Positions 668 through 17,351 of a stretch of 18,160 nucleotides of DNA are shown here, one piece after another. A model generated the notes under the pieces. The model was not told the origin of the DNA. It ran no database searches and saw only the letters and a program-made list of their open reading frames with translations. The stretch comes from Candidatus Zhuqueibacterota bacterium. Its GTDB lineage: Bacteria > BS750m-G25. Made by a program: the position numbers and the translations under genes. The stretch lies in assembly GCA_016783505.1 (NCBI GenBank), contig JADHWK010000045.1, positions 1 to 18,160 on the forward strand, read 5' to 3'. The stretch's first letter is position 1, and each line of letters begins with the position of its first letter.

Positions 668-847
668 ATGACTATCAATGGGCTGATTAAATCTACTAAA
701 GATAAGGCATTGATGGCCAAAATCCTGAATGATCCGGTCCAGACCTGCAAAGAATTAGGTGAGCCCGTGGACATCGGCTTCCTTGACAACCTGGGACTTC
801 CGCTCTTCACTGAGTCTACGGTTATGCAAGGGGGATACCGACCCTGA
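668..847 (+). CDS. small peptide, RiPP-precursor-like (59 aa)
   Basis: This ORF is the first after the sigma-54 promoter. It encodes 59 residues, beginning MTINGLIKSTKDKALMAKIL and ending TVMQGGYRP. A purine-rich GGGGAAGGGA stretch lies just upstream of the ATG. The middle, AKILNDPVQTCKELGEPVD, resembles nitrile-hydratase-type leader peptides of RiPPs, where an alanine/leucine helix is followed by DP and then E-L-G. The glycine pair near the C-terminus followed by Tyr would fit a leader/core boundary. It is acidic to neutral, has one Cys and no signal peptide. A peptide substrate for the radical SAM enzyme encoded downstream is the best guess; a small regulatory protein is the alternative. 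Confidence 0.5.
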   Translation: MTINGLIKSTKDKALMAKILNDPVQTCKELGEPVDIGFLDNLGLPLFTESTVMQGGYRP

Positions 848-906
848 TGAAACGGCAATATCACATGAAGTTAGGCTCAATTGGGTAACTTATGGAGGTA
901 AAAACT

Positions 907-1080
907 ATGTTCAATAACTACAAATACGAAAAACCCGCATTTATCGCGAAAAGGAGCACCGACGCCCTCACAGCAGCATTTGCCGGTGGTGGGTGGTTGC
1001 ATCTAAATGATCCCCATAGATCGGATAAAGCATCGCCTAAATATGATTTGACTGTGAAACGATATGAAAGACGAAATTAA
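907..1080 (+). CDS. small peptide, RiPP-precursor-like with YEKP leader motif and GGGW (57 aa)
   Basis: The start at 907 is chosen because GGAGG (894-898) lies 8 bases upstream; an in-frame ATG at 892 overlaps that site. The product starts MFNNYKYEKPAF. Y-x-x-P or 'YEKP' blocks of this kind occur near the N-terminus of lasso and other RiPP leaders, where they are read by the modifying machinery. It then has TAAFAGGGW, followed by a polar, charged tail rich in His, Asp, Lys and Arg that ends KRYERRN. Its last codons overlap the start of the ABC ATPase gene, so the two are translationally linked. No transmembrane segment or signal peptide is visible. Position, size and motifs make it the strongest precursor candidate in the window; the function remains inferred. 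Confidence 0.6.
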   Translation: MFNNYKYEKPAFIAKRSTDALTAAFAGGGWLHLNDPHRSDKASPKYDLTVKRYERRN

Positions 1081-2062
1081 TAGGAAAAGCCAGCCACTCC
1101 TGACCATTAAGGGGTTAAAAACAGAATTTAGGGTTCAAGACAATAAGGTGCTTCGAGCGGTTGACGGTATAGACCTGGCCATAAATTCTGGAGAGATACA
1201 CGGTTTGGTAGGAGAATCGGGATGTGGGAAAACGGTCGCCTCACTTTCCGTCTTGCGCTTGATCTCTCCTCCTGGTTACATTTCGGCAGGAGAAGTCTTG
1301 TGGAACGGTAATAATTTGTTGAGATTGAAAAAAGGGGAAATCAGAAAGATTCGGGGGAAAGAAATCGCCATGATTTTTCAGAATCCTCAAGGGTCTCTCA
1401 ACCCCCTATACACTATTGGTGAGCAAATAGCCTCCATCATACGTTTACACAAGAATATATCCAAGAGAGAGGCACGAGAAGAGGCATTAAGACTGCTTCA
1501 GGAGGTGAAGATTCCCGATCCTGAAAGCAGGGTGAACGACTATCCCCATCAATTGAGCGGGGGGATGTGCCAGAGGGTGATGATAGCCATGTCCCTATCC
1601 TGTCAGCCAAAACTACTTATAGCGGATGAGCCAACTGCAGCCCTGGACGTGACCATTCAGGCCCAAATTCTTGACTTGCTTCTGGAGCTTCGTGGGAGGT
1701 TTCAGATGGCCATGTTATTGATCTCTCATGATATGGGAGTGGTGGCCAGAATGTGCGACCGGATATCAGTCATGTATCTAGGGAAAATCGTGGAAGAATC
1801 GGATGCTGAAGGGCTTTACTCGAATCCAAAGCATCCATATACTCAGGCGCTTTTGAAGGCTGTTCCGATCCCGAATCCCAGTGAGAAGGCGGCGTTTTCT
1901 TTACTGAAAGGAGACCTGCCCAGTTCTATTGATATACCTTCCGGCTGCAGGTTCAGGACTCGGTGCCCCAAGGTTTTTGATCGATGCATCCATGAGCCTG
2001 AATTGGAGTCTGTTGATCAAAATGGCACCATGGTTGCATGTTGGCTCTATGAAAAAGAATAG
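1064..2062 (+). CDS. peptide ABC transporter ATP-binding protein, DppD/OppD family
   Basis: This 332-residue ATPase would power the peptide transporter encoded at 3594-7011. The Walker A motif GLVGESGCGKT is at residues 47-57, the signature LSGGMCQR at 164-171, Walker B ending ADEPTAALD with D188/E189, and the switch histidine H222 in LLISHDMG. The C-terminal extension has the oligopeptide/dipeptide-transporter signature HPYTQALLKAVP and a Cys-containing GCRFRTRCP segment, as in DppD and OppD. Length is normal for the family. Its start overlaps the preceding peptide ORF by 17 bases; the ribosome site is weak, suggesting translational coupling. The usual partner ATPase (DppF/OppF) is absent from the window, so the protein may work as a homodimer or share a partner encoded elsewhere. 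Confidence 0.95.
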   Translation: MKDEINRKSQPLLTIKGLKTEFRVQDNKVLRAVDGIDLAINSGEIHGLVGESGCGKTVASLSVLRLISPPGYISAGEVLWNGNNLLRLKKGEIRKIRGKEIAMIFQNPQGSLNPLYTIGEQIASIIRLHKNISKREAREEALRLLQEVKIPDPESRVNDYPHQLSGGMCQRVMIAMSLSCQPKLLIADEPTAALDVTIQAQILDLLLELRGRFQMAMLLISHDMGVVARMCDRISVMYLGKIVEESDAEGLYSNPKHPYTQALLKAVPIPNPSEKAAFSLLKGDLPSSIDIPSGCRFRTRCPKVFDRCIHEPELESVDQNGTMVACWLYEKE

Positions 2063-2069
2063 TGGACAT

Positions 2070-3197
2070 ATGGAACCTATTGAATTGTGGTATGGCCTCA
2101 TAAACTCAATGATGATGGAACAGGGATTGTTCAGAGACCTAAAGGCTGTCTATGAAAAGAATTCTCCTTTTATCGCAGAAATAATTATGAACAGCTTCTG
2201 TCCCAGCAAGTGCCAGCACTGTATTTATGCTCCAGACTTTCATCTTTACAATAAAAATCTGACCCAGGATGAATGGAAAGAAGCCTTCAGGGTCATTCAT
2301 GACGAATTGGGATTGAATAGATTTATATTTGATGGAAGAGCGTTTACAGAGCAATGTATTCGGGCGATAGAATATTTAAAGGAAAACTTCGGAGATGTGA
2401 AAGTCGGACTGATCACTGATGGCATTTCCATTGGACCATTCGTAGAAAGACTCATCGATTTCCCGCCCGATTGGCTTGATGTCTCGGTGGACGGGCTTGA
2501 AAAAGAACATGATCTCCAAAGAAATCATATAGGTGCCTTTAGAAAGACATTTGATGTTTTAATTCAGCTTAAAGACTCTAATCGCTTTGATAAGATTAAC
2601 ATCTTGAGCTGTTTGACTACCTTAAATATTGGCTCAATCTTGGAAATGATAAGATTTTTGAATGCCAAAGGCTTTAAAAATTTTTTTATAACACCGGTGA
2701 GCGTTTTAAAGGGATATCGCCCTGACCCAGACCTTCAACCGCAGAGGGAAGAATTTGTCAACTTCCTCGATGAATTTCTGATAACGTCAAATACTTTGTT
2801 CGACACATGGCTCGAAGTTGACATTTATGAGGCCATATACGCCAATACCATCAGACAGCTAAGGCCCCAACTTTTCAATGAGTTCATGATGGAAAATGAC
2901 CATCTTGAACTTGTGAAAGCGCACGGAAATAATGAGGTTCATATCTCCTATTACCCATTGTCCCTAACAGGTGTTCGAGAGTTCATTGTAAATTCCGATG
3001 GAAATATTATCCCACCAAAGGTCGTGGCAATGGGAAAAATACCCAGGGAGTTTGTTTTTGGGAATTTATTGGAACTTGGAGGAAAAGAAGAGAAATTCGA
3101 TCAGTTAATGTCCAGCCAGGCCTTTTCCTTCTACATGTCAGAGTTATTGAGTGAGAAAGCCTTGCTGGGACGAGATAATGGGGGAATACCAGGATGA
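2070..3197 (+). CDS. radical SAM enzyme with a cysteine-free SPASM-like C-terminus
   Basis: The 375-residue product has the radical SAM cluster motif CPSKCQHC (C44, C48, C51), which binds the 4Fe-4S cluster that splits S-adenosylmethionine. The barrel continues with FIFDGRAF in place of the usual GGEP strand, then GLITDGISIG and a VSVDG strand followed by HD-x-x-RN, all typical of peptide-modifying members. Near residues 303-340, the segment VNSDGNIIPP...GKIPREFVFGNL has the outline of a SPASM domain, but where that domain carries cluster-binding cysteines there are none. I chose ATG 2070, 7 bases after the ATPase stop; ATG 2049 (7 codons longer) is possible and neither has a strong ribosome site. 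Neighbouring small ORFs are the likely substrates. Linkage chemistry cannot be read from sequence. Confidence 0.9.
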   Translation: MEPIELWYGLINSMMMEQGLFRDLKAVYEKNSPFIAEIIMNSFCPSKCQHCIYAPDFHLYNKNLTQDEWKEAFRVIHDELGLNRFIFDGRAFTEQCIRAIEYLKENFGDVKVGLITDGISIGPFVERLIDFPPDWLDVSVDGLEKEHDLQRNHIGAFRKTFDVLIQLKDSNRFDKINILSCLTTLNIGSILEMIRFLNAKGFKNFFITPVSVLKGYRPDPDLQPQREEFVNFLDEFLITSNTLFDTWLEVDIYEAIYANTIRQLRPQLFNEFMMENDHLELVKAHGNNEVHISYYPLSLTGVREFIVNSDGNIIPPKVVAMGKIPREFVFGNLLELGGKEEKFDQLMSSQAFSFYMSELLSEKALLGRDNGGIPG

Positions 3198-3468
3198 AAA
3201 CAATAAGCATAGGAGAATATCCTTCGATCGCCAAGTTCTTATTAGAAAAGCTGGCACAGGACTCTCTTTTGATGCTTACGAAGAGGACAATGATATGCAA
3301 GAAGAATTAATGGAATATTTCAGAGACGCTATTGATCAACAAACAGAAATAATAACACGATATTACGGAAACCTTGATAACACGAAATTGCTGCTCCAGG
3401 AATCCGTAGTGGGAAGATCCGGACCACATCTGCAGAAGCCGGCCAAACTCATATTGAAGCGTCTTTAA
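3178..3468 (+). CDS. small protein of unknown function (96 aa), possibly frameshifted
   Basis: The frame from ATG 3178 overlaps the end of the radical SAM gene by 20 bases and encodes a charged 96-residue protein. It starts MGEYQDENNKHRR and has a central acidic helix, DNDMQEELMEYFRDAIDQQT. I do not recognise it. A competing reading starts at 3194, sharing an ATGA overlap with the radical SAM stop as other genes here do. It gives MKTISIGEYPSIAKFLLEKL before stopping near 3307. Joining that N-terminus to the later part of the 3178 frame near 3268-3275 would yield a more protein-like product, so a one-base deletion or a frameshift is possible. Its position between a radical SAM gene and a peptide gene fits an accessory RiPP factor, but no RRE (PqqD-like) pattern is visible. 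Confidence 0.5.
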   Translation: MGEYQDENNKHRRISFDRQVLIRKAGTGLSFDAYEEDNDMQEELMEYFRDAIDQQTEIITRYYGNLDNTKLLLQESVVGRSGPHLQKPAKLILKRL

Positions 3469-3483
3469 AGCTATGGAATCATG

Positions 3484-3491
3484 AAGGAGGG
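3484..3491 (+). promoter_or_regulatory. strong ribosome binding site deciding the start of the 33-aa peptide
   Basis: AAGGAGGG at 3484-3491 lies 4 bases before ATG 3496. It is one of the best Shine-Dalgarno matches in the window and is the reason to begin the peptide at 3496, not at the in-frame ATG at 3481, which overlaps the site. Confidence 0.7.
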
Positions 3492-3495
3492 AAAG

Positions 3496-3597
3496 ATGGT
3501 TAGAAATTTTGCAACAAACATTGGAAGCAACGGAAAGGGAAAGCCGTTCAAGGAGGGCACCGAACCCCCAAAAACAAAAGGTGGAGGCCTGCGATGA
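3496..3597 (+). CDS. 33-aa peptide, candidate precursor or signal peptide ORF
   Basis: This ORF encodes 33 residues: MVRNFATNIGSNGKGKPFKE, then GTEPPKTKGGGLR. It is basic and rich in Gly, Lys, Asn and Pro, with no hydrophobic segment, so it is not a secretion leader or membrane peptide. Its stop overlaps the ATG of the binding-protein gene (ATGA at 3594-3597), and a very strong ribosome site precedes it. Such a short, well-translated ORF between a radical SAM gene and a peptide-binding protein may encode a precursor or signalling peptide. It may instead be a leader ORF serving translational coupling of the binding protein. No homologue comes to mind. Confidence 0.5.
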   Translation: MVRNFATNIGSNGKGKPFKEGTEPPKTKGGGLR

Positions 3598-5270
3598 AAA
3601 TAGCAGACGGTATCACGAATCGCACTGAAAGTTCAATGGGGAGCACCATGCTAAATCAAGAACTTGGTTGCTTAAGAAAAACAGGTAGGCTACTTACGGG
3701 ACTGTTCATTGCGGTTTTGATTTGTGCCTTCCTGCCTCCCGCGGCACAAGCCATGAGACTGGTTTTTGGTTTGGATACAGCTCCTGAAAGGTTAATTCCC
3801 ATCAAAATCAAGAATCCGCAGACCTTTCCGGTCAGCATGCAGATATTCCAGGGGCTGTGCGATTTGGATGAGAAGGGGAGTGTTATCCCTTGTATTGCCG
3901 AAAGCTGGGACACAAAAGATTACAAGACCTGGCGCTTTCACATCAGAAGGGGAGTTTTCTTTCAAAAATCTCCGATCTTTCAGAATGGGACAAGGGAAGT
4001 TACAGCCGAAGATGTCTTGTACTGCCTCACTCGGTTCTGTTCAGCATCCTCTTACAATGCATTCTTGTTGATTGATTCGGTAATAGGCGCTGCTGAATAC
4101 AATCAAGGCAAGGCAGAAAAAGTAAAGGGGTTGAGTTTGCTCGACAAATATACCATTCAGATAGACTTGCTTCGGCCGGAGCTGTTTTTCATCAACCGTC
4201 TTAGCACAGCCCTGGTTTCTGTTTTTCCAAGGGAAGTAGACAAAAAGGAATACGGGGAAAAAGTCGGGCTATCTTTGGTGGTGGGCACAGGCCCCTATGT
4301 ACTTCAATCAAGGACAGAAACAGAGGTGGTCCTCAAAAGAAATGACAATTATTGGAACACTGCAACCCAACCTCATTTTGATGAGATCACCTTTCGAGTG
4401 ATAAGAAATGATCAGATGCGCCTGGTTAATCTGCAAAGGGGAAACATCGATCTGATGGTCCTGCCGAGTAGTCTGTTTCCATCGGTTTTCAATAGGAACG
4501 GGACGTTGAGGGAATATATAAGCAAAAAATTCCAAATGAAGATTGCTGCCACTTTCAATACCCATTTCCTCGGGATTAACAACACAGCGATTCCTGATGT
4601 GAACCTTAGGCGGGCGATGTTCTGGGGGACGAATAGAAAAGAGATAATTGACACCATCCTTTATGGATATGCGGACCTGACTGGCGGCCCGGTGCCCCCT
4701 GGAATAGATGGATACAAATCACCCTTTACGGATAGTTTATTCGACCCTGATAAGGCAAAAGCCTATTTGAAGAGAAGTAATTACAGAGGAGAGCCTTTAG
4801 AATTGCTCCTCTATGATATCGCAAATAGCGAACAAGTTGGGCAGATATTTCAGGCCCAGATGGCCAATGTTGGGATTCAAGTCGTGTTAAAAAAGCTGGA
4901 TTTTAACAGCGTCATTAACCGTATGGTAAAAGGGGAGTGTCAGCTTTTCAGCATGTTTGCCGAATATGTATTCTCTTCCCCACAGCCAATCCTGATCAAT
5001 CTTTTTTCATCTTCCAAGATCCCCGTCCCTAATGTTTTTCACTTTTCAAACAGCGCGGTGGATGCCATGTTGAATTCCCTTTACACGATTACAAATGAAA
5101 AGGAGTCGGTAAGGGAATGTTCCCGGATTGTGGATAGGATTATGCAAGGCGTGCCGGGCGTTTTTCTTTACAGGCAAAAGTATGTTATTCTCTACCCTAA
5201 GGAAATGACTGGCCTCGAAGTCAGTGGAAATAATCATTATTTTCTCGAAAAGATGAAGATTGGGCGATGA
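3594..5270 (+). CDS. extracytoplasmic peptide-binding protein, OppA/DppA family (SBP_bac_5)
   Basis: The 558-residue protein has a Sec signal peptide with hydrophobic core LLTGLFIAVLICAFLPP and probable cleavage after AQA at residue 53. There is no clear lipobox, which suggests a soluble periplasmic protein. The mature part shows the family pattern: IFQGLCDLDEKG, AESWD, WRFHIRRGVFF, then EVTAEDVLYCLTRF, GTGPYVL and ND-x-YW. Length is usual for the family. ATG 3594 has GGAGG 6 bases upstream but gives a 31-residue n-region; ATG 3648 would give a shorter, more typical one. It overlaps the 33-aa peptide gene upstream and the permease gene downstream by 4 bases each, so it should deliver a peptide, perhaps the modified cluster product, to those permeases. 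Confidence 0.93.
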   Translation: MKIADGITNRTESSMGSTMLNQELGCLRKTGRLLTGLFIAVLICAFLPPAAQAMRLVFGLDTAPERLIPIKIKNPQTFPVSMQIFQGLCDLDEKGSVIPCIAESWDTKDYKTWRFHIRRGVFFQKSPIFQNGTREVTAEDVLYCLTRFCSASSYNAFLLIDSVIGAAEYNQGKAEKVKGLSLLDKYTIQIDLLRPELFFINRLSTALVSVFPREVDKKEYGEKVGLSLVVGTGPYVLQSRTETEVVLKRNDNYWNTATQPHFDEITFRVIRNDQMRLVNLQRGNIDLMVLPSSLFPSVFNRNGTLREYISKKFQMKIAATFNTHFLGINNTAIPDVNLRRAMFWGTNRKEIIDTILYGYADLTGGPVPPGIDGYKSPFTDSLFDPDKAKAYLKRSNYRGEPLELLLYDIANSEQVGQIFQAQMANVGIQVVLKKLDFNSVINRMVKGECQLFSMFAEYVFSSPQPILINLFSSSKIPVPNVFHFSNSAVDAMLNSLYTITNEKESVRECSRIVDRIMQGVPGVFLYRQKYVILYPKEMTGLEVSGNNHYFLEKMKIGR

Positions 5271-6199
5271 TATCCTATTTGGTGATGCGGTTTGGTTACT
5301 ACCTCTCCATATTCCTGGGGATCATTGTTTTTTCTTTTCTCCTCTTCCATGTCATACCGTCTGATCCTGCAAGAACCATTTTGGGGCCCAACGCTGATCA
5401 AGCACAGGTTGAACAACTGCGTGAGAAACTGGGGCTTAATGAACCCCTTTATCGCCGGCTGGGTTACTATTTAGTAAATGTGGCTACCCTTAAATTTGGC
5501 CATTCTTATGTTGACGGCAGAGATGTCTTTATTGAGATTGGCAGGAGATTTAAGGTCACATTGTCTCTGATCACGGTTTCCATGGTAATCGTTTTTGGGT
5601 ATCTGGCTGTTACAATCCTGACATTTCGTTTCTCTTCACTTCAAAGATGGTCCCATGCCATTGATTTCTTGATTTCATCCCTGCCCGTGTTTTTTAGCGG
5701 AATTATCGGCGCGATATTTGTTCTCTATTTCTATCCGGTCACCTCCTTTTCGGGCAATCTGAACTCAGTAAACGATCTTATTTTTCTAATTCCTCCTGCG
5801 CTGGTTCTTGCCTTTTATCCTATGTCCATTCTGTCGGGGATATTGAAAGAGGAAATGTCTTTTGTCCTGCAGTCCCTCTACATAACAGCGGAGAAATCCT
5901 GGGGGTTTTCAGACATTACGATATTGTTCAAATATGCTTTGAAAAACTCGCTAATTCCCATATTGTCCGCTCTATCAAATATATTGCCAATGCTTCTGAC
6001 AGGCGCTTTTATTGTAGAGATCATCTTCTCTGTTCCGGGCATAGGAAGTATTCTGGTAAAGTCAATTCTTGAGCAAGACTTCCCCATGCTCGAATGTACA
6101 GTCATCGTCAATGGGGCCTTTTTTGTGCTCGTAAACCTCGGATTTGAGTATCTGTATCCGCTGCTGGATCCCCGAACAGTTAGAGGAAATAAAATATGA
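5267..6199 (+). CDS. peptide ABC transporter permease, DppB/OppB family
   Basis: A 310-residue inner-membrane protein beginning with a TM helix (FGYYLSIFLGIIVFSFLLFHVIP) and the family motif PSDPARTILGPNA, then LREKLGLNEPL and a FGHSYVDGRDV loop. Five further hydrophobic stretches follow. The cytoplasmic EAA-type loop AEKSWGFSDITILFKYALKN is followed by NSLIPILSAL, then the usual VEIIFSVPGIGSIL and the C-terminal LLDPRTV. All features are ordinary for the family. Its start overlaps the binding-protein stop (ATGA), and its own stop overlaps the next permease start the same way. The loop has E-K-S-W-G where most relatives have A-R-A-K-G, a modest divergence in the ATPase-contacting region. Confidence 0.93.
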   Translation: MISYLVMRFGYYLSIFLGIIVFSFLLFHVIPSDPARTILGPNADQAQVEQLREKLGLNEPLYRRLGYYLVNVATLKFGHSYVDGRDVFIEIGRRFKVTLSLITVSMVIVFGYLAVTILTFRFSSLQRWSHAIDFLISSLPVFFSGIIGAIFVLYFYPVTSFSGNLNSVNDLIFLIPPALVLAFYPMSILSGILKEEMSFVLQSLYITAEKSWGFSDITILFKYALKNSLIPILSALSNILPMLLTGAFIVEIIFSVPGIGSILVKSILEQDFPMLECTVIVNGAFFVLVNLGFEYLYPLLDPRTVRGNKI

Positions 6200-7011
6200 A
6201 TCGGCAGAGGGGCATCCTCTATTTAATGATCTTTATGGGTATGCTCTGGATTGGAGGGGTCGTTTGTTCTAAGTTTGCACCACATAATCCCTTGGAGATT
6301 CTTCTGTCGGAAAGGCTGACTCCGCCTAATAAAACCTATCTCTGCGGGACGGATGAACTTGGTCGTGATATCTTCAGCAGAATTCTGGTCGGCTTTTCAA
6401 ATACCATGAATGTCTCCATTATGACCCTATTCTCTTCCTTTTTCATAGGGGTATTAATCGGGCCACTTGCCGGTTTTTTTTACAACACGGTCATTGACAG
6501 GCTTTTCAACTGGGTCGCAGCCATGCTCTTTTCCTTACCTTTCTTACTAATCATTACGGCGTTGATGAGTTTGCTGGAAAAGAACCTATTTAACGCGTAT
6601 GCAGTGATGACCGCCATTATTTGGGTCAGCCCTGCGCGAATCGTAAGAGCAGGCGTGATTAAAGCAAAATCCGCTACCTTTGTTGTGGCAGAGCGAGCCA
6701 TGGGGAAATCTGAATCCACGATTCTCTTTCGGTCTCTCATACCGATGAGCATCCGACCGGCCTTTATTTTCTCATTCAAGTATTTTCCGGAAATTATAGG
6801 CATGGAGGCGGGACTTTCATTTCTGGGATTGGGTGTTCAGCCGCCCCACCCAGGCCTGGGCAAAATGATTTTTGACAGTCTAAATTATCTTTATTCAGGC
6901 TGGTGGTATGCATTCTTCCCCGCCTTTTTTCTCTTTGTGATAGTCTTTTTGAGCAATATGGTTTACCGCTGGGTTTCTGGAAGAGCAGCGTACACACGCC
7001 AGGAGGTCTAA
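6196..7011 (+). CDS. peptide ABC transporter permease, DppC/OppC family
   Basis: A 271-residue membrane protein, partner of the preceding permease. It has one N-terminal TM helix, the family hallmark CGTDELGRDIFSRILVG, further helices, an EAA-type loop (ERAMGKSESTILFRSLIPMS) and the characteristic EAGLSFLGLGVQPPHPGLGK before the last helices. Length is slightly short but within range. The start overlaps the DppB-like stop by 4 bases. Its stop at 7009-7011 is 4 bases before the kinase-like gene, whose GGAGG ribosome site lies inside this gene's end, tying the transporter and the signalling genes into one transcript. Confidence 0.93.
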   Translation: MNRQRGILYLMIFMGMLWIGGVVCSKFAPHNPLEILLSERLTPPNKTYLCGTDELGRDIFSRILVGFSNTMNVSIMTLFSSFFIGVLIGPLAGFFYNTVIDRLFNWVAAMLFSLPFLLIITALMSLLEKNLFNAYAVMTAIIWVSPARIVRAGVIKAKSATFVVAERAMGKSESTILFRSLIPMSIRPAFIFSFKYFPEIIGMEAGLSFLGLGVQPPHPGLGKMIFDSLNYLYSGWWYAFFPAFFLFVIVFLSNMVYRWVSGRAAYTRQEV

Positions 7012-7015
7012 TCCA

Positions 7016-9610
7016 ATGGCAGAATTCTATAATAAATTTTATCGAGAGGAATTCTATGTATTAAGCGACCGTTTACCGAATAAGTTGGCCAAAGACCAAT
7101 CACTTTTCCTAAACACCTTCGATTATCGCAATCGATGTGTAAACTTCAATGCTATTTCACCGGATAAGAGACGGTTCGAAGATGGGATATTTAATGATGG
7201 ATTCATGGAGTTCTGCAAAAAATGGAGCCATTTTGATCACTTTAAGAAGCAGATTAGAGAATTCTATAGAAAAAAAGGTGATAGCTATATCAGTATACTC
7301 GATGAATTCACATCGAAAGGACAAGCAAACGAGAGTGAAAAAATTAATTTACACTATCACTTAGTTGAACTTTATCACTCCTTTCCAAGTAATCCCGAAA
7401 TGTACCTCGATGGAATACTGAGAAAACTGTCAACTCAATTAGCCAAGAGAAATATTAGATTTAGGTATGCAACCATAGATCTTGTTGAAAAAGAAAAATG
7501 TGACTTCAAAGATTTTCCATGGGTTAAAATGACGTTTTTTGATCCGAATGAACCCAGCGGGGTCATTAAAATAAAAATTGATTCCGAGCGTGAATCCGAG
7601 CCTGGAATAGAAGAGATACTGGCAAGCCAGGAGACTCTCGATATCTTAGAAAATTGCCCACCCCCGAAAGAAACCGAACCGATGAATTCGCGACCCACTA
7701 CCAATACTGATGAACGGTTTAAGCCTCATATCTTGCATAACTACCTTTATCCTCTCTTTTCTAAGAAAAAGAAAGACTTCATTGGAGGTGATTGGTATAT
7801 TGACGAACCTCCTAAATCGTTTTTGGTAATGCCTATCTATTCAGCCGATTTTCATGATGGTGATTTTGGCACGATTATTGGCTACTTCTTTTTGCCTTTC
7901 ACATCCAAACAAGATAGAGGAAAATTCTTGAAGAATCACAAAAATGAATTAGATAAGTTATGGCAAACATGGACAACCTTGACACTGCAAACCTTGCTCG
8001 AAGGGAAAAAGCACTTAATCTCAGACCACGATCTCCGGCACGATGATAGTCTTAAAGATTTTCTGGATAGCATAGCTTTTGTGCAGGACTGGGAAAGAGT
8101 GTTGGTTTTCGGCAAGGAAGAAGCGACCGAGCCAGAATACTGCTTTAAAAGATTTAAGGGAGGGAAGGATGGCAAATGGTTGTCCTACGAAGAAGTTTGG
8201 GATATTTGTAGAAATGGCAAAAAGGGAAAGTGTAATGGATGCATTAAAGGGTTTGGCAACAAATCGGTGAAAGACCTTTTTATGTCAAGTGGAAGAGACC
8301 CCTCACCTAAAAAAATCTATAAGGACTCAACAAATGATAAGTGGTTTTTCTTCCTGTATATGGACCATATTCTTGATCCAAGAGTTTTGCCATCTATCGA
8401 AGAGGCAGATAAGGCAAGATATTCAAATCACATCATTTGTTTTGAGTTTCCAGAATATACCTTCTTCCCCACGGAAATCTGGGAAAATGAGGAAGAGGCA
8501 GTGGAAGAGCTTGGCGATCACTATGTCAAAAAACTCCTTCCGAGTTTTGATAAAGTGATCTTGAAAAGAAGGGTTTTGAAACACAGTATAAAATCCGCAG
8601 TAGCTGCCATTATGAGCCGAAACATGTCTCATAATATTGGGAGCCACATACTTGCCAGGATCAAACTCGAAGAAATTTCTTGGAAGGTTAAGGATGCTCT
8701 GAAGAGAGTCAACGATGATAGGATAACGGATATATGCAACTTGCTCTTTGAGGAATTCCACCAGTATATCCAGAAAAAGAGCGACTTTCTTGCCGAGATC
8801 TCAACAGAACCATATATCTCACCCCGTTCGGCCTTCTTTTATAAGGACGTAATCCTGCCCCTAACAGAGAAGATCCTCCTATTGGACTATATTGCCAGAA
8901 ACGATGGGATAAGGTACGAGCAATTGTCTATAAGGTTTTTTTCAAAGTCCAGGTCAAGAGGCTGCTGTTGTGAATTAGCGCCTGTAAAATACGAAGGAAA
9001 AGAGTGTTCCGAGAATGATAATAAGCCGAAGAAAGTGCCTTTTCATAAGGTATGCCTAGATTGCGCTGCTGAAGAAGGTTACGCAGTTGATGATGTGCGA
9101 TATTATGTAAATGGTGTTAAGAATTCCAATTATGATGTAATGCTTGATCTACCTGGGAGCGTGGGTGAGTTTGCAATTTATAATATCCTTGAGGCTATCA
9201 TCCGAAATTCTGCAAAGCATAATAGCTCAAAGATAGATAATGGTACTAAGCTTGAGATATCAATCAAGGTGGAAGAAGATGAGGACCCCGCCCTTTACAT
9301 CTGCACCGTCTGGGACAATCTCAGCGATGAAGACCTAATAAATAAGATGAATGGGTATATTGAAGAGACAATTGTGGATCAGAAGACTGGAAAGCTAAGG
9401 CCCCAGAACTGGGGTATTGCCGAGATGAAGATCTGTGCCGTACTCTTGCAGGACAGATCCTTCGAGGAGATGGAGAGTGATCCAAGGCGATTTCTTGAGG
9501 CTGTGCAAGTTAGCGGTAACAGGCTTGGATACCGTTTCAAGATCCTGCGGGCAAGGCGGAGCTTGCTCTTGTTAGAAAATACATGGGATAAGCTCTGTAA
9601 TGGAGGTTAA
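7016..9610 (+). CDS. soluble histidine-kinase-like GHKL ATPase with cysteine clusters
   Basis: An 864-residue protein without TM helices or signal peptide. The first 520 residues match no sensor domain I know and include a C398-x7-C406-x2-C409 group. A helical segment carries MSRNMSHNIGSHIL (533-546), where H539 or H544 could be the phospho-accepting histidine. The ATPase domain follows: N-box EAIIRNSAKHN (726-736), D767 in WDN, and NWGIAEMK (798-805) as a G-box-like loop. Between them are CCC (650-652), C664 and CLDC (680-683), perhaps a metal site. GGAGG sits 9 bases before the ATG. This should be the input kinase for the receivers encoded downstream. The G-boxes are imperfect, so ATP binding without autophosphorylation remains possible. 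Confidence 0.8.
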   Translation: MAEFYNKFYREEFYVLSDRLPNKLAKDQSLFLNTFDYRNRCVNFNAISPDKRRFEDGIFNDGFMEFCKKWSHFDHFKKQIREFYRKKGDSYISILDEFTSKGQANESEKINLHYHLVELYHSFPSNPEMYLDGILRKLSTQLAKRNIRFRYATIDLVEKEKCDFKDFPWVKMTFFDPNEPSGVIKIKIDSERESEPGIEEILASQETLDILENCPPPKETEPMNSRPTTNTDERFKPHILHNYLYPLFSKKKKDFIGGDWYIDEPPKSFLVMPIYSADFHDGDFGTIIGYFFLPFTSKQDRGKFLKNHKNELDKLWQTWTTLTLQTLLEGKKHLISDHDLRHDDSLKDFLDSIAFVQDWERVLVFGKEEATEPEYCFKRFKGGKDGKWLSYEEVWDICRNGKKGKCNGCIKGFGNKSVKDLFMSSGRDPSPKKIYKDSTNDKWFFFLYMDHILDPRVLPSIEEADKARYSNHIICFEFPEYTFFPTEIWENEEEAVEELGDHYVKKLLPSFDKVILKRRVLKHSIKSAVAAIMSRNMSHNIGSHILARIKLEEISWKVKDALKRVNDDRITDICNLLFEEFHQYIQKKSDFLAEISTEPYISPRSAFFYKDVILPLTEKILLLDYIARNDGIRYEQLSIRFFSKSRSRGCCCELAPVKYEGKECSENDNKPKKVPFHKVCLDCAAEEGYAVDDVRYYVNGVKNSNYDVMLDLPGSVGEFAIYNILEAIIRNSAKHNSSKIDNGTKLEISIKVEEDEDPALYICTVWDNLSDEDLINKMNGYIEETIVDQKTGKLRPQNWGIAEMKICAVLLQDRSFEEMESDPRRFLEAVQVSGNRLGYRFKILRARRSLLLLENTWDKLCNGG

Positions 9611-9611
9611 G

Positions 9612-10847
9612 ATGAACGGGGTTGAATGGGAAAGGCTTGGATGTTTTCATAAGGAGGATATTGGTGGAGCCGTTGTATCTTTTGGAGGGTATATCCCTTT
9701 TGAACTTGTTATATTTGATACGACCTCTCTTGATCATAGTGCGGTTGAAAAGTTTGCCATTGAAGTGAAAGAAAACCTCCCCTACATGGGGAACAGAATA
9801 CTGATCCTTATAAGGAATAGCGAAATTCCTGCCTCTCTGAATGGTCTGGAAAGGACCTGTGCCATCTGTTGTAAGGACGATGTCTGCAAATCCCTTAATT
9901 CTAAACCACCGGAGCTATGGCCTGGGATACTCCACTACATGTGGTTAAAGGGGATCTCAGGAAGGTCGGACTGGAAAGTCCATATCAACCTGGATGTATG
10001 GGAAAAGGATCGTTTGACTGACCAATGGAAAAACATAGAAAGCAACATCTCCAAATTCCTACCTGGAATTTCTTTGACTGCCCTTCATAAGAAAAGGGAG
10101 CATGACAAATCAAATGAATCAAATGGAAATAACCCAGACCTCCAAGATCACAGTATCGTATTCGATAGGCACGCTGTATTTTGGTATTCCATGGAATCCT
10201 CCCTTAAGGATTTATCTTTCAAGGGGCACTACGAGGAATGGGGCATAAATTCTCCTTTATATCTTAGCCTATTTAACCCGCCGGAATCTGTGGTTGCTCA
10301 AATAGACCTTGTTGTAGGTCTCCTTGAGACCTCCTTTTTCAAGATCCTGGTGGTGGATGAACGGATTGGAGAAAAGGCCCTTGACTCTACGTCAGCGAAT
10401 ATGGAAAGGTTCAAAATGCTTGCCAATATGGGAGTTTTTATTGTAACCCATGTTGGCGATACCCCCGTTGGCAAAGATATTTCCGAACAGGCATTCAGTC
10501 TCACAATACATAATAATACATTGTCTCTTATGCGGAACGGAAAAGAGTACAAACAGTTCCATTTTCTGGTTATTCACCAAGGAGTCATAGAAAACGAAGA
10601 GGTAAGGGCATTTCTTGAGAAAGGCTTGGGTTTGGATAAGAATTGCTCTCCTGAAGATCTTGTAAGAAAAATATCTCATTATGTTCCGTTTGTGGTAATT
10701 GACTCCGGGAGGGGTATACCGGCAAATATGCCCCAGAATGCCAAATTCCTCACCTTTTCTGCCCTGCAGGATATGATTCTCAGGAAAAACCCCGCCAAAT
10801 ATCAATTAATCCAAATACTTTTAAGACTTACCAGGAGGAAACGATGA
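9612..10847 (+). CDS. unrecognised alpha/beta protein, possibly with degenerate receiver-like domains (411 aa)
   Basis: ATG 9612 is chosen because GGAGG (9602-9606) precedes it by 5 bases; ATG 9600 overlaps that site. The 411-residue product is soluble. Three strand-like blocks stand out: FKILVVDERIG (about 243-253), FHFLVIHQGVI (316-326) and FVVIDSGRGIP (360-370), followed by AKFLTFSALQDMIL and a basic tail LLRLTRRKR. The first and last resemble the first strand and acidic turn of CheY-like folds without the full catalytic set. A C-A-I-C-C group lies in the N-terminal third. It is placed directly after the kinase and before other receiver-like proteins, with overlap at both ends, so a partner or effector of the kinase is likely. 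Function not recognised. Confidence 0.7.
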   Translation: MNGVEWERLGCFHKEDIGGAVVSFGGYIPFELVIFDTTSLDHSAVEKFAIEVKENLPYMGNRILILIRNSEIPASLNGLERTCAICCKDDVCKSLNSKPPELWPGILHYMWLKGISGRSDWKVHINLDVWEKDRLTDQWKNIESNISKFLPGISLTALHKKREHDKSNESNGNNPDLQDHSIVFDRHAVFWYSMESSLKDLSFKGHYEEWGINSPLYLSLFNPPESVVAQIDLVVGLLETSFFKILVVDERIGEKALDSTSANMERFKMLANMGVFIVTHVGDTPVGKDISEQAFSLTIHNNTLSLMRNGKEYKQFHFLVIHQGVIENEEVRAFLEKGLGLDKNCSPEDLVRKISHYVPFVVIDSGRGIPANMPQNAKFLTFSALQDMILRKNPAKYQLIQILLRLTRRKR

Positions 10848-11602
10848 AGATAATATTCTTTTTTACCCACAAAAGATCTGAAATAAGAAACATGGGTGAC
10901 CGGGATCCCCCTGGATTTAATGTTGATGATACCTCGTGTCCCATCCAATTGAAATCTAATGGAAGACAAATAGTTTATTATTTCAAAGTTGAATCTAATG
11001 TAGTGAACTGGAAAGAGAAAGTAACGGAGATAATAAATCATTATAATCTCGATTCTGCCGAATCCATCTACTTTTTTCATTATCAAACTATGAAACCTGA
11101 AACGATTAGGGGCAACCTCAGTCTTCATGGTAAAGTCGTCGAAAAATTTACAAGCAGTGGCGACACGCGAGAGCTTTGGGATCAGATAACGGGAATAAAA
11201 TGTGTTTGTCAAGGTGGGAAAGTAAGTGAACCTCAAGTATTTGAGAAAATATTCGATGAGATATGGAACAGATACAGCGTACGCCCAAGAATTCACCGCC
11301 TCCGCTATGGAATCCTCTCTCCCCTTGTTGCTCTTGACCTGATTAAACAGGCTGAAGTAAATAGCTCGTCGGATAAGAGCACTGACTTGAGTACCCTAAA
11401 AAACGAAATCGAGACAGCTATTGATAATCTTGGTGAGTCAATCAAAGAATTTTGTGAACTTCCAATTAAATGCGATGAGTTCAAGGATCAACTTGAGAAG
11501 TTGAGGAAATATGAAAAATACTCTTCGTGGAAGGATTACCATAAGGAACTTAAAGAAGTTGCTGAAGGAATGGAAGAGCAGATTGCAGCGATTGAATCTT
11601 GA
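10844..11602 (+). CDS. unrecognised protein with C-terminal coiled coil (252 aa)
   Basis: The ATG overlaps the preceding stop (ATGA), and AGGAGG (10833-10838) lies 5 bases upstream, so the start is secure. The N-terminal 160 residues look alpha/beta (MKIIFFFTHKR, RQIVYYFKVES, SIYFFHYQTM) with a C-V-C pair in IKCVCQGG. The last 80 residues are strongly helical and charged, likely a coiled coil (LKNEIETAIDNLGESIKEF and DQLEKLRKYEKY). No membrane segment and no motif I recognise. Tight packing between two putative signalling genes suggests it belongs to the same complex. It could be a scaffold, or an effector triggered by the phosphorelay; nothing in the sequence decides. Confidence 0.7.
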   Translation: MKIIFFFTHKRSEIRNMGDRDPPGFNVDDTSCPIQLKSNGRQIVYYFKVESNVVNWKEKVTEIINHYNLDSAESIYFFHYQTMKPETIRGNLSLHGKVVEKFTSSGDTRELWDQITGIKCVCQGGKVSEPQVFEKIFDEIWNRYSVRPRIHRLRYGILSPLVALDLIKQAEVNSSSDKSTDLSTLKNEIETAIDNLGESIKEFCELPIKCDEFKDQLEKLRKYEKYSSWKDYHKELKEVAEGMEEQIAAIES

Positions 11603-12603
11603 TGAAGCCACTCAGGTTAAATGGGGGAACCGCGATTCAATCCCAGTACGATCTGCCGGATCTACGAGGCAGGCTGAGCAGGCAAGAAGGCACAGTGAAA
11701 TCTATTAGGAGACTGTATCTTGGCATTCACGCTTCAGCCGGCCGCAAAGGATACTCTAACAACCGGGAAAGCATCCTGAATGAGATGATTTCCACCCTTG
11801 CGGATGAGAGCACAAGGATGGGGTTTGCCCTTGCCTGCCCGAGGAGAGTGGCGCCGGATGGAATTTTGTGGATGGCTGATTTGATAAGAAATACGCTCCA
11901 CGCTATTTTCCCTGAAGCGGATAAGCTGGAAATCGTTGATGCTTATAAGGACACAGAAGGCCATGGCACCATGCTGGCCGGGCTTGAGGAGGTGAAGGCA
12001 AAGAGAGCCAAAGGAGGTCTGAGAAGGGCTGTGGTAGTCTATGGATTTGACAGTGACGAGCGGATCAGACAGAACAAGAGCGGCTCTATTTTGGACGCCC
12101 CGGGTGTGTTTTACTTGAGGCTGCCCGCCCTTCTCTCCGATATTAAGAAGGTTTTCGATGAGGCGGCCAATATTCAAGTTATTGAGAACAATGCCATTGA
12201 TGAAAAGAGCTTCAGTGATTATGCCATCCGGGAGATTAGTGCCTTCAAACACCGGTGCGACAATCTATGGATTTCCATGGAGATGAATGCCAACATTGCC
12301 AAGATGGACCTTGATAACTCGCCTGAAACTATGCCAAGCGAGCTTTTTGAATTCAAAACGTCCCATATTGAAAAGCTTTTAGAGGAATACCGTAAACTCG
12401 ATCCAGTAGTGAAGCGACTTGGGATTGCAGATGCTGATAAAGTGACGGGTATGATGGATAAAGTTATTGGTGTAGTAAGACAAATACAGGATAAGAAGAC
12501 CTCGCCCCCAAAGGCTTTAAATCTCGCTTTCGTATGCGTAGAAAAAGGGAGGGCTCTTTCAGCTATTCTTGAGAAGGCAAAGGAGTTGAAATATGGCAAG
12601 TAA
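11602..12603 (+). CDS. pseudo-receiver plus helical domain protein, possible phosphotransfer component (333 aa)
   Basis: Starts at ATG 11602, overlapping the previous stop by one base. Residues 147-175 contain YGFDSDE and ILDAPGVFYLRLP, which match YGFSPFE and LLVSPGVYHLHLP in the N-terminus of the protein encoded at 14115-15980: a shared domain within one operon. After it comes a helical region with EISAFKHRCDNLW; a histidine stands at a similar place in the sister protein (ESELAHHMGNFLG), which could be a phosphotransfer site. The N-terminal 140 residues (RRLYLGIHASAGRKGY, DKLEIVDAYKDTEGHG) may form a further receiver-like fold lacking the acidic pair. The C-terminus overlaps the response-regulator start by 11 bases. 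It has no output domain I recognise. Confidence 0.7.
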   Translation: MKPLRLNGGTAIQSQYDLPDLRGRLSRQEGTVKSIRRLYLGIHASAGRKGYSNNRESILNEMISTLADESTRMGFALACPRRVAPDGILWMADLIRNTLHAIFPEADKLEIVDAYKDTEGHGTMLAGLEEVKAKRAKGGLRRAVVVYGFDSDERIRQNKSGSILDAPGVFYLRLPALLSDIKKVFDEAANIQVIENNAIDEKSFSDYAIREISAFKHRCDNLWISMEMNANIAKMDLDNSPETMPSELFEFKTSHIEKLLEEYRKLDPVVKRLGIADADKVTGMMDKVIGVVRQIQDKKTSPPKALNLAFVCVEKGRALSAILEKAKELKYGK

Positions 12604-14050
12604 ACGCGTTCTTTTTATAGATGACGATTTTAGACTTTTTGAGAAGGCATTGCGTAAACAATTAGGCAAAGCTGGCTTTGAGATCAGATGCGAGGAAGAT
12701 CCTTTCAATGTCCTGAGAGTTATTTCATCTTACCATCCTGATGTCATTCTTCTGGATATCCTCTTCCCCGAAGGCTACTTGGGAAAACCTACCCTCGAAA
12801 AGATCAAGAAAAAACATCCCAACATGCCGGTAATGATGATTACCGGCACCATGGATAAGTCCGAGTACAAATCAGAGCACTATTTGCTGGCCGACTACCG
12901 CTATTCGAAGGAGGCCTTAACAGCAGGGGACTTTTCAGACCTTGCCGCACAACTGAACAGGTTGATTGAAAGGGCAGAGGCTCAGGAACAGGGAGATGAA
13001 GATAACACTGGGCTGGACAGTTTCGGGTTCATTGTCGGAAAGTCAAAGGCCATGCATGAGGTGGCTGAGATGGTGGAAAAGGTGGCTGATCAGGAACACA
13101 CAGTGCTCATTACCGGTGAATCAGGGACCGGCAAAAAGCTTGTAGCCCGTTCCGTACATGACAAGAGCAGACGTCAGAACCGGAACTTCGTGACTATCGT
13201 TTGCGCGGCCCTATCCAAGGAGCTTCTTGAAAGCGAACTCTTTGGACACGAAAAGGGAGCTTTTACAAGCGCGGTTTCAGATAAGAAAGGTAAGTTCGAG
13301 GTTGCAGGAGATGGGACCATCTTCTTGGATGAGATCGGTGATATGCCCCTTGATACCCAGGTTAAGCTGCTCCGTTTCGTGGAGGAAAGAGAATTCGAAA
13401 GGGTGGGCGGAAATGAGGTCCTGAGGTCCAACGCCCGAATCATTGCCGCCACAAACCAGGACCTTCACGACCTTGTCGCAAAGCGAGACTTCCGAGAAGA
13501 CCTCTTTTTTCGATTGAATGTGCTTTCCATCCATATGCCCCCGCTCAGAGAACGTAAGGAAGACATTCCCGTCTTTTTTGAACATTTTATTAATAAAGCA
13601 AATGAGGATTCTAGGAAGAAAGTGTTGCCAATCCTTAGAGAGGATGTAAGGTTGATGCTGCTTTCCTATACCTGGCCGGGTAATATTCGTTTGTTTGAAA
13701 ACCTTATCAATCGTGCTGTTGCCATTGCAGATGAGAACATCCTTCAAGTGAATAATTTCCCCGACCTATCCAAAAAAATGGCTCAAGAGAATGGCGTGCC
13801 ATCTGATGTACCCTATATCGTTGATCGGATTTTAAAGGGTGAATTGACCTGGTCCGATATAAGTAAAGAGTTTGGCGCCAAAGGAATGATACGAAAAGAG
13901 GTACTATCACGAACAATAGATCGCTGGGTAAATGAGAATCAACGTCGGCCTTCTTCCGAAGATTTGGGCACATTATTATCGACTACCCCCGGGAATATGC
14001 GACGCATCCTGTCCGAATGTGGAATTAAGCTGACAGAAATGACGAAGTAG
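12593..14050 (+). CDS. sigma-54-dependent response regulator (NtrC family, receiver-AAA-HTH)
   Basis: A 485-residue activator. The receiver (1-115) has the acidic cluster D10-D11-D12, phospho-acceptor D55 in ILLDILFPEG, T84 and K106, so it should be phosphorylatable. The AAA+ domain has Walker A GESGTGKK (175-182), the sigma-54 contact loop GAFTSA (222-227; normally GAFTGA), Walker B GTIFLDEIGDM (D246, E247), R301/R307 of FREDLFFRLN and WPGNIRLFENL. The C-terminus lacks a plain Fis motif but ends in a helix-turn-helix-like segment (EDLGTLLSTTPGNMRRILSE). It should open promoters held by sigma-54 polymerase when phosphorylated, presumably by the kinase encoded at 7016. The sites at 595 and 17539 are obvious candidate targets. 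Confidence 0.94.
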   Translation: MASKRVLFIDDDFRLFEKALRKQLGKAGFEIRCEEDPFNVLRVISSYHPDVILLDILFPEGYLGKPTLEKIKKKHPNMPVMMITGTMDKSEYKSEHYLLADYRYSKEALTAGDFSDLAAQLNRLIERAEAQEQGDEDNTGLDSFGFIVGKSKAMHEVAEMVEKVADQEHTVLITGESGTGKKLVARSVHDKSRRQNRNFVTIVCAALSKELLESELFGHEKGAFTSAVSDKKGKFEVAGDGTIFLDEIGDMPLDTQVKLLRFVEEREFERVGGNEVLRSNARIIAATNQDLHDLVAKRDFREDLFFRLNVLSIHMPPLRERKEDIPVFFEHFINKANEDSRKKVLPILREDVRLMLLSYTWPGNIRLFENLINRAVAIADENILQVNNFPDLSKKMAQENGVPSDVPYIVDRILKGELTWSDISKEFGAKGMIRKEVLSRTIDRWVNENQRRPSSEDLGTLLSTTPGNMRRILSECGIKLTEMTK

Positions 14051-14114
14051 ACCTAAGTAGGGCGATTTTAAACTCAAATTTTTTGAACCATACTTCATAA
14101 ATAACAGGTGAAAA

Positions 14115-15980
14115 ATGGCTTTATTAGAAAAAGTCCTGCAGAAACTGTGGCCCAATCTGTCGGCTCATTGGGTCAATGTGGATAGCTTTGGCCCCGATAT
14201 CGGCGGACAAATCCTGCAGCTCCGGATGAGACATGAGAATATTGACCCCACCCCGATTATCCTATATGGGTTCAGTCCCTTCGAGAGTCTTGTTCGCTCA
14301 GAAAAAGCGCAACCCGGACTACTAGTGAGCCCTGGAGTCTACCACCTTCACCTTCCAGCAAATTGGGATCGGGTTAAAAGCATTCTTAAAAGAGCCCAAG
14401 AAACTCGCATAGACAGGAAAAAGCTGAAAAGCACGCTGATGAACGACGCTTTAGCTGGCGGTCGGTTGGCACGCATGGAATCCGAACTTGCACATCATAT
14501 GGGGAATTTCTTAGGACCTGAGAAGCTGCTTTATGGCGCTCACCTGGCTGAAATGATTGATCATGAGATTTTTCAGAAAATCTTGGCTAAGATACGGGAC
14601 AAACAGAAAACCATTTTAGAAAGTCGGAAAGAATACTACCTATATCGACTATCACAGGTTAACTATACACCCAACTGGGTTAACAAAATCTCTGAACCAA
14701 AGGTCACGAGAGGCGAAATCTTATATATTGATGATCACGCTCATCTTGGGTGGGCTTTTGCAGTAGCAGCAGCCTTGTTCGGCAAATTTCGATGCTTTTT
14801 CTCTGTGAAAAAAGCCAAAGAATACAACATGGATATTTTCGCATCTTACTTTGAAAATGGTCCTAGTTTATGCGTGATAAACACTGAAGGTATATCAGCT
14901 ACTGAAAATGCTTATATGGACAAAGCCCTCGCGATTGCAAATGATCACACTTTCATTCAGCGTTTTTCTCTCATTTTGGTTGACCTCCGCTTACGTTGGA
15001 AACAAGATGAAAACCAGAACATCAAAGATATATCAGGAATGAAGGTCATCCGTAAGATTCGTGATGCCAATGCGGCTATCCCGGTGATTGTACTCACAGC
15101 ATCCCGAAAGGCCAAGAACATGGAGAGGGTGTTGGAATTGGGCGCTGATGGATATTTCATCAAAGAACTCCCTCAACCAAATGAAAAACAAGATGAAATT
15201 GAGGATTATTATCATCGCTTTGTTCAAGTTGTGAAAGAGGCAATAGATAAGTCTTATTTGGCAGAGGCATGGAGGATTGTGAAAAAGCTGGAATTATATG
15301 AATCTAAAGACTATATAAATTCCAGAATGGATTACAACGAACTTCCAGATGATTTTAAGATAGATTGGCAACAACAGGTGATTAGCCCTTTAAAAAAGGG
15401 GATCGGTTTTATGCGGAAAGAAAATACTTCTTTTGAACAAGATGCCTTTCAACTGTCTACAATAGCAGAAGCCATCATCAACTTCAATCACCCTAACGAC
15501 ACCTTCAAAACCTTAAACGATAATTATAAGGATAGATATAAGAATGAAGTCGATCCACCAATCAGAATTTACCTTAACCCAAATCCCTACCTTTTCAATG
15601 GCCACCTATTGTTGGCGGGCCTACGGAATCTCGCGGCCCATGGTAAACATGAAAAGATCTTTGAAAAAAATGATGGTGAGATTGCCATGTATTTAGGTTT
15701 TAGAGCTCTAATAGGCAAAAAGCATACCGATGCCGTAAACCTGTTAAAGAAGTTAATAACTAAGATATTCCCCCAACATAAAAATCAAAGAATCGATCTT
15801 GAAACAGTAAAAAATGAGGCTACTAATAGAAGAGAACAAGCTGAAACGGATAAAGATCGTCTATATCTTGAATTTTTGGCGGATATAAATACCGAGGAAG
15901 GAAAAAAGCCTCTTGAGCAAGATGAGATTCTTATTTGTGAAATATGCAAGAATCATAACATACCGATAATGCCTTTATGA
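14115..15980 (+). CDS. receiver protein with N-terminal pseudo-receiver and C-terminal HEPN-like domain
   Basis: A 621-residue protein in three parts. Residues 1-100 share YGF...SPGVYHLHLP with the protein encoded at 11602, followed by a helical segment with H-H. Residues about 200-355 form a full receiver: D206-D207, phospho-acceptor D290 in ILVDLRL, T328 in VLTAS and K350 in FIKE. D207 and D290 are 83 residues apart, about 35 more than usual. The C-terminus is helical and contains LLLAGLRNLAAHGK (R504, N505, H509), which fits the HEPN pattern R-polar-x3-H of RNA-cleaving and toxin proteins. A phosphorylation-controlled RNase is thus conceivable. AGGTG near 14107 serves as ribosome site; the 64-base gap upstream is the largest inside the operon. 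Confidence 0.85.
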   Translation: MALLEKVLQKLWPNLSAHWVNVDSFGPDIGGQILQLRMRHENIDPTPIILYGFSPFESLVRSEKAQPGLLVSPGVYHLHLPANWDRVKSILKRAQETRIDRKKLKSTLMNDALAGGRLARMESELAHHMGNFLGPEKLLYGAHLAEMIDHEIFQKILAKIRDKQKTILESRKEYYLYRLSQVNYTPNWVNKISEPKVTRGEILYIDDHAHLGWAFAVAAALFGKFRCFFSVKKAKEYNMDIFASYFENGPSLCVINTEGISATENAYMDKALAIANDHTFIQRFSLILVDLRLRWKQDENQNIKDISGMKVIRKIRDANAAIPVIVLTASRKAKNMERVLELGADGYFIKELPQPNEKQDEIEDYYHRFVQVVKEAIDKSYLAEAWRIVKKLELYESKDYINSRMDYNELPDDFKIDWQQQVISPLKKGIGFMRKENTSFEQDAFQLSTIAEAIINFNHPNDTFKTLNDNYKDRYKNEVDPPIRIYLNPNPYLFNGHLLLAGLRNLAAHGKHEKIFEKNDGEIAMYLGFRALIGKKHTDAVNLLKKLITKIFPQHKNQRIDLETVKNEATNRREQAETDKDRLYLEFLADINTEEGKKPLEQDEILICEICKNHNIPIMPL

Positions 15981-16162
15981 ATTGTAGAGAAAGCTCATGG
16001 AACCTATTATAAGGGATGATGTCCAAAATTATTGTGAAAAACCGGTAGTACATTCTTGGGAATTGAAATGGAAAGGCCACATTTTTTGGAGAAACTGAAA
16101 ATTGGAATTGAGGATTGTGGGTAAGGTGGCTCATAAGAATTTCACTTGAGTGAGGATGAAAT

Positions 16163-17335: not shown

Positions 17336-17351
17336 GTTACCATCTCATAAC
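17336..17351 (+). promoter_or_regulatory. GTTAC-N6-ATAAC dyad, same as the upstream enhancer sites
   Basis: GTTAC (17336-17340), six bases, ATAAC (17347-17351), flanked by TT on the left and A on the right, exactly as in the dyad at 469-484. The central six bases differ, so the match is in the half-sites, as expected for a protein-binding operator. It is about 190 bases upstream of the sigma-54-like element at 17539, within enhancer range. A weaker half-site (GTTAT, 17369-17373) follows 33 bases later. Confidence 0.5.

Follow-up and report, generated by a model that had tools for sequence, protein, structure and literature searches.

The window analysed here, 18,160 nucleotides in length, is one whole contig (G000:C58) of a Candidatus Zhuqueibacterota genome of 2.5 Mb, approximately 60% complete, which is the sole member of its class and phylum in the genome set compared; a search of this genome with RF00177 found no 16S gene. 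From 668 to 15980 nearly all genes lie on the + strand and either overlap or are separated by tiny gaps. At the contig start, positions 3-287 encode the truncated C-terminal part of a protein that appears methyltransferase-like by eye (GLLKRAGWEITHIIDAPLS), and positions 90-287 have no Pfam match. The features on which this analysis turns are the following.

469-484, + strand: dyad 1, GTTAC-N6-ATAAC, a proposed activator (bEBP) binding site
492-507, + strand: dyad 2, GTTAT-N6-ATAAC, centred 23 bp from the centre of dyad 1
594-610, + strand: sigma-54 (-24/-12) type promoter, TTGGCAT-CGCAG-TTGCA (TTGGCATCGCAGTTGCA), with exact GG-N10-GC spacing
668-847, + strand: ORF1, 59 aa, window-specific; a possible accessory peptide whose coding status is moderately supported
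907-1080, + strand: ORF2, 57 aa, window-specific, with a YxxP-like N-terminus and the SD sequence GGAGG; coding status unsure
1064-2062, + strand: oppD-type ATPase (ABC_tran and oligo_HPY), the sole ATPase gene of the transporter
2049-3197, + strand: radical SAM enzyme (Radical_SAM, E 7e-11), with CxxxCxxC at C51/C55/C58
3178-3468, + strand: window-specific reading frame of 96 aa that overlaps the end of the radical SAM gene; an alternative frame, 3194-3310, encodes 38 aa
3496-3597, + strand: tiny peptide gene, 33 aa, motif NxGSxGKGKPxK, kept in Brocadia; the best candidate substrate of the radical SAM enzyme
3594-5270, + strand: family-5 peptide-type binding protein (SBP; SBP_bac_5, E 5e-63) with a hydrophobic, signal-peptide-like N-terminal segment
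5267-6199, + strand: oppB-type permease (BPD_transp_1)
6196-7011, + strand: oppC-type permease (BPD_transp_1)
7016-9610, + strand: soluble protein of 864 aa, starting 4 nt after oppC, with histidine-kinase-like motifs by eye
12593-14050, + strand: NtrC-type sigma-54 activator (receiver and AAA+, GAFTSA), the proposed operon regulator

The genes from oppD to oppC thus run in one direction with overlaps, as originally predicted, in the order oppD, radical SAM gene, tiny ORF, SBP gene, oppB, oppC. The radical SAM gene is placed between oppD and the SBP gene, and its start overlaps the end of oppD. Radical SAM peptide loci usually include a means of export; neither an exporter nor a peptidase was found within the window.

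The radical SAM enzyme

Membership of the radical SAM superfamily is indicated by a match to PF04055 (43 bits against a cut-off of 29.5) together with the CxxxCxxC motif. The cysteines of the enzyme are confined to positions 51, 55, 58, 103 and 188; there is no SPASM match, the C-terminal set of cysteines for auxiliary clusters is absent, and the protein therefore lacks the C-terminal Cys-rich domain that defines the SPASM/twitch peptide-modifying class. Only 50 residues precede the first cluster cysteine, too few to leave room for an N-terminal RRE, and searches with Pfam and NCBIfam models recognised no RRE or PqqD domain in the locus. In a profile search the closest solved relatives were two peptide thioether synthases, SkfB (E 7e-18) and 5wgg, a CteB-type enzyme (E 5e-13), followed by MoaA and AnSME. 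The region of the GGE motif reads DGRA in the window enzyme and CGRS in the Brocadia enzyme described below. SkfB and CteB possess auxiliary clusters as well as an RRE at the N-terminus, and their products are Cys thioethers. Although these sactipeptide and ranthipeptide maturases (PDB 6efn and 5wgg) are the closest solved relatives of its radical SAM domain, the window enzyme has no recognised RRE and lacks the C-terminal cysteines, and the tiny peptide contains no cysteine.

A related locus in Candidatus Brocadia

When 84,980 species genomes were scanned with the radical SAM enzyme, one close relative was returned, from a Candidatus Brocadia MAG, where it lies on a contig of 9.1 kb; the scan used short peptide patterns, which detect close relatives only, and so this count does not prove the locus rare. 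The Brocadia genome was also the only one returned from a draw of 392 planctomycete genomes. The gene order sought in other genomes recurs on this contig as oppD, radical SAM gene, a 19-codon ORF, SBP gene and oppB, where the contig ends inside oppB, before any activator gene further 3'. Identity between the two loci is 64% for oppD, about 40-41% for the radical SAM enzyme (370 residues) and 48% for the SBP. Both contigs belong to draft genomes that appear to have been assembled from metagenomes, for which misbinning is possible.

A conserved tiny ORF is the candidate precursor

In both loci a tiny ORF sits between the radical SAM and SBP genes. The window ORF had been listed from 3481, and its start is more likely at 3496, a few nucleotides downstream of AAGGAGG; from there it reads MVRNFATNIGSNGKGKPFKEGTEPPKTKGGGLR (beginning MVRNFATNIGSNGKGKPFK...). 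The 19-residue Brocadia peptide (L002 7193-7252) is MIMNLGANSGSAGKGKPKK, and 11 of its 19 residues match the window peptide, ungapped from the start codon. When all frames of both intervals were compared, the tiny-peptide BLOSUM score of 56 was reached by none of 1000 pairs of dinucleotide shuffles (mean 22, maximum 43). Differences fall 7, 6 and 13 at the three codon positions (third positions, 13/26), and for 7 of the 11 kept residues the two genes differ in their choice of synonymous codon (AGC against TCT for Ser, among others). The tiny ORF carries an amino-acid-level signature of selection. Additionally, its ribosome-binding sites are strong and well spaced (AAGGAGG in the window, GGAGG in Brocadia), and no other SD-preceded ORF of at least 15 aa lies outside the main genes in the Brocadia gaps that were scanned. 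Its codon usage is not above that of off-frame sequence and gives no support, so that the case for this gene, known from two loci, rests on conservation. A short, conserved candidate precursor gene adjacent to a radical SAM gene, as in RaS-RiPP systems, is present; the peptide contains neither Cys nor His in either locus. When viral contigs and the Brocadia class were searched with a DNA pattern for the tiny peptide, none of the matches, apart from the known locus, had radical SAM or Opp neighbours. One such match, in the Brocadia-class genome at L058, fell by chance inside a Cas9-like frame with HNH and RuvC-like stretches by eye.

The same ORF might instead be a translated leader that couples SBP translation, the radical SAM enzyme having its target elsewhere and the Opp system being nutritional. 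It precedes the SBP gene in both loci, and in the window it overlaps the SBP start (3594 against 3597), its last codons forming the SBP ribosome-binding site. Coupling, however, does not need amino acid conservation, yet residues have been kept across synonymous changes, and the Brocadia ORF has a GGAGG of its own and ends approximately 60 nt before the likely SBP start (ATG 7315). We consider this explanation unlikely, and favour the tiny ORF as the precursor.

An importer with a single ATPase gene

The prediction that the transporter is of importer type and has a binding protein is confirmed by the family-5 SBP with its hydrophobic N-terminal segment, two permeases and an ATPase with oligo_HPY, the set of components that characterises Opp/Dpp ABC importers. 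It differs from the other members of the Dpp/Opp family in having one ATPase gene and in the insertion of the radical SAM gene between the genes for the ATPase and the SBP. AlphaFold models built from four sequences were poor (mean pLDDT 54.9 and 47.2) and were left unused, the SBP model being too poor for its pocket to be read.

These assignments bear on a second alternative, in which the tiny peptide is the enzyme's substrate and the product is a metallophore or other scavenging compound, so that Opp recovers the loaded product rather than a signal. An importer with no linked exporter fits the retrieval of a secreted chelator, SBP family 5 has nickel-metallophore and heme binders among its members, some of which are also close to the window protein among solved structures, and OppB and OppC score best against the nickel-transport models Opp2B and Opp2C. 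The permease scores, however, are far below the curated cut-offs, and the nickel label for this reason carries little weight; the nearest solved structures of the SBP are DppA dipeptide-binding proteins, and the absence of Cys and His from the tiny peptide in both loci also argues against a metal ligand. A metallophore thus appears quite unlikely.

ORF1 and ORF2 are specific to the window

The original prediction of a radical SAM peptide system joined to an importer-type transporter holds in outline, but its choice of precursors, ORF1 and ORF2, does not; the conserved small gene is the one at 3496-3597. Both ORFs directly follow the promoter and have good ribosome-binding sites, and both look leader-like, ORF1 in an ALMAKILNDP-type stretch and ORF2 in a YxxP stretch. 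The codon score of ORF1 is gene-like (6% of off-frame null scores are as high), but that of ORF2 is no better than off-frame sequence. Neither matches a precursor or other family in NCBIfam or Pfam up to E=1, which leaves their assignment as NHLP, nif11 or lasso precursors with no curated family match; neither has a second copy in the window genome, and no leader-reading RRE was recognised in the locus. Furthermore, counterparts of ORF1, ORF2 and the 3178-3468 frame, which has no Pfam or NCBIfam family match, are absent from the Brocadia locus (L002) and from the two more distant loci described below (L011 and L012). Because ORF1 and ORF2 are missing from Brocadia and the tiny ORF is present there, the expectation that orthologous loci keep the small ORFs falls for the former and stands for the latter. 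That either ORF1 or ORF2, or both, are RiPP precursors of the radical SAM enzyme is improbable.

Distant loci in the Brocadia class

Among 75 genomes of the Brocadia class, two further radical SAM homologues were found (E 4e-20 and 3e-18), and these extend the gene-order check, since in both genomes the enzyme lies with a one-ATPase Opp system, whose oppD is 48-49% identical to that of the window. Both loci comprise oppD, SBP, oppB, oppC, a SIR2-like gene, the radical SAM gene and a gene for a 524-aa protein, and one of the two enzymes gives a weak SPASM match. Neither locus contains a separate tiny ORF or the GTTAY-N6-ATAAC dyad. The N-termini of the distant enzymes are rich in Gly and Ser (MAVPGLSGSTGGVSPNN and MALGFSGSNNGITTN), begin directly after a strong ribosome-binding site (L012 6115-6170, L011 10089-10040) and are reminiscent of the tiny peptide; they might represent a fused or degenerate precursor, a suggestion that is only a lead. 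Wider searches did not extend this set. In 386 genomes spread across bacterial families, the profile found ordinary radical SAM enzymes only, and the loci fetched from this spread, including the best one, L015, have no Opp genes in their flanks. Searches of plasmids, phages and viral contigs returned nothing, or just short radical SAM-domain matches in viral contigs.

The SIR2-like proteins (L012 4988-6115, L011 10103-11120), encoded between oppC and the radical SAM gene, match SIR2_2 and ThsA models, and the frame of the L011 gene is broken. The combination of Opp, SIR2 and radical SAM genes in these loci is possibly a stress or defence module. Extended to the window, the argument would yield a competition or defence module in which the product is either an antimicrobial peptide or a stress product and the importer, in connection with the SIR2-like effector of the distant loci, confers immunity or sensing linked to uptake; the ThsA-related protein and the kinship of the enzyme with SkfB, the maturase of a killing factor, speak for it, but the window has no SIR2 or PADLOC match and one of the two distant SIR2 genes is disrupted, and we regard it as hardly probable.

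A shared, apparently sigma-54-dependent control region

The two dyads and the sigma-54 site lie upstream of ORF1, and the sigma-54 pattern gave one match against 0.01 expected. The Brocadia locus has a counterpart of each upstream of oppD, with dyads at L002 4600-4615 and 4622-4637 and a sigma-54 site, TTGGTATGTAACTTGCA, at L002 4769-4785. The layout common to both loci is accordingly two GTTAY-N6-ATAAC dyads 22-23 bp apart followed by TTGGYAT-N5-TTGCA. The pattern TGGYAN6TTGCW was present in both upstream regions in none of 2000 paired shuffles. For the dyads, counts made with a single pattern overstate the case, because the pattern was chosen after both sequences had been seen, and a motif-free test for a shared dyad that tolerated one mismatch was weak and, by itself, not significant, being equalled by 130 of 2000 shuffles. 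We therefore relied on direct, motif-free local DNA alignment of the upstream regions, in which the best match was the double dyad and 4 of 2000 shuffles did as well. The paired-dyad pattern had six matches in viral contigs, none near related genes.

The island at 7016-17134, which follows oppC, encodes the NtrC-type activator, a receiver-domain protein (14115-15980) and several large soluble proteins that matched nothing in Pfam, NCBIfam or PADLOC; none of the proteins at 7016-12603 matched a family, and that at 16163-17134 is a membrane protein by hydropathy. The activator has GAFTSA in place of GAFTGA. With a -24/-12 element, upstream dyads and an activator gene nearby, the operon is, on sequence criteria, apparently under sigma-54 control.

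A third GTTAC-N6-ATAAC dyad lies at 17336-17351, followed by TTGGCATCATTTTCGCA at 17538-17554, which has the GG-N10-GC spacing. Downstream are small ORFs at 17633-17827 (64 aa) and 17872-18063 (63 aa) and one that is cut by the contig end. The elements at 17336-17554 are possibly another promoter belonging to this regulon.

Discussion

The locus is real and unusual, and the peptide and the promoter are two independent signs of its conservation across apparently different phyla. As read from the DNA, the locus combines its gene content with a conserved tiny peptide, a promoter and dyads shared with Brocadia and an activator in the same run. We propose that it is a sigma-54-controlled, short-precursor radical SAM peptide operon with a dedicated Opp-type importer, and that the system probably serves signalling. 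The NtrC-type activator would bind the paired dyads and drive the sigma-54 promoter; the tiny gene at 3496-3597 would supply a precursor of approximately 19-33 aa with no classical leader, and the radical SAM enzyme (2049-3197) would modify its conserved NxGSxGKGKP segment. The product or a fragment of it would leave the cell by an unlinked route, be captured by the SBP and be brought back by OppBC/OppD, and within the cell it would serve as an input to the soluble signalling proteins of the downstream genes, the NtrC-type activator among them. Three of these links, modification of the tiny peptide by the enzyme, its import by Opp and the action of the activator on this particular promoter, we infer from the arrangement of the genes, and export of the product and its sensing in the cytoplasm are likewise conjectural steps. 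The sigma-54 promoter and dyads common to both loci strengthen the signalling idea, as does the activator in the same run. We assign the explanation as a whole a probability of about 0.42.

A more specific and distinctly more speculative form of this proposal is Gram-negative Opp-dependent signalling in which a leaderless tiny pheromone, modified by the radical SAM enzyme, is re-imported by the Opp system of its own operon and perceived by soluble sensors that act on the sigma-54 activator; in the distant loci the precursor may have merged into the enzyme as its Gly/Ser-rich N-terminus (MAVPGLSGSTGGVSPNN..., MALGFSGSNNGITTN...). We put this forward as doubtful.

The proposed short-precursor operon nevertheless offers, through its dedicated importer, its kept 19-33 aa peptide and its kept promoter layout, a concrete candidate, open to test, for signalling by modified peptides among environmental Gram-negative bacteria, and it hints at a previously undescribed signalling loop of this kind. 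The NxGSxGKGKP peptide is common to an anammox lineage and one that appears unrelated to it, and it illustrates that a precursor can be so short that it would escape gene callers as well as RiPP predictors that rely on a leader. In the open-licence literature we found no paper that combines a radical SAM peptide locus and an Opp importer in one operon.

In Rgg/SHP circuits Opp is not known to be part of the locus, and no Rgg/RRNPP protein was identified in the window. The proposed loop nonetheless resembles the Rgg/SHP-PptAB-Opp circuits in its small peptide, re-import through Opp, cytoplasmic sensing and positive feedback (PMC13361665). The pheromone of those circuits is a short hydrophobic peptide that is not described as modified by a radical SAM enzyme, and the regulator is Rgg (PMC13361665).

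The nearest parallel in organisation is the streptococcal RaS-RiPP operon wgk, which directs tryglysin synthesis and encodes the 21-aa precursor WgkA, a radical SAM enzyme and an RRE protein (PMC8092268). An Rgg/SHP pair, with a pheromone that re-enters the cell through Opp, controls this operon (PMC8092268; reviewed in PMC13361665), which thus shares with the window a very short precursor adjoining the radical SAM gene and, as proposed here, expression tied to peptide signalling with import by Opp (PMC8092268). In wgk the imported pheromone and the radical SAM product are separate peptides (PMC8092268), whereas in the window importer, enzyme and peptide are encoded in one operon, and for this reason the idea of an imported product is more direct than in the streptococcal case. 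The window also differs from wgk in having no recognised WgkC-like RRE protein, no Trp-Gly-Lys motif and no linked export-type transporter, and its control looks sigma-54 dependent rather than Rgg dependent. The locus is best called a variant, not seen before, of the short-precursor radical SAM peptide systems, with signalling as the leading, although not proven, explanation of its mechanism.
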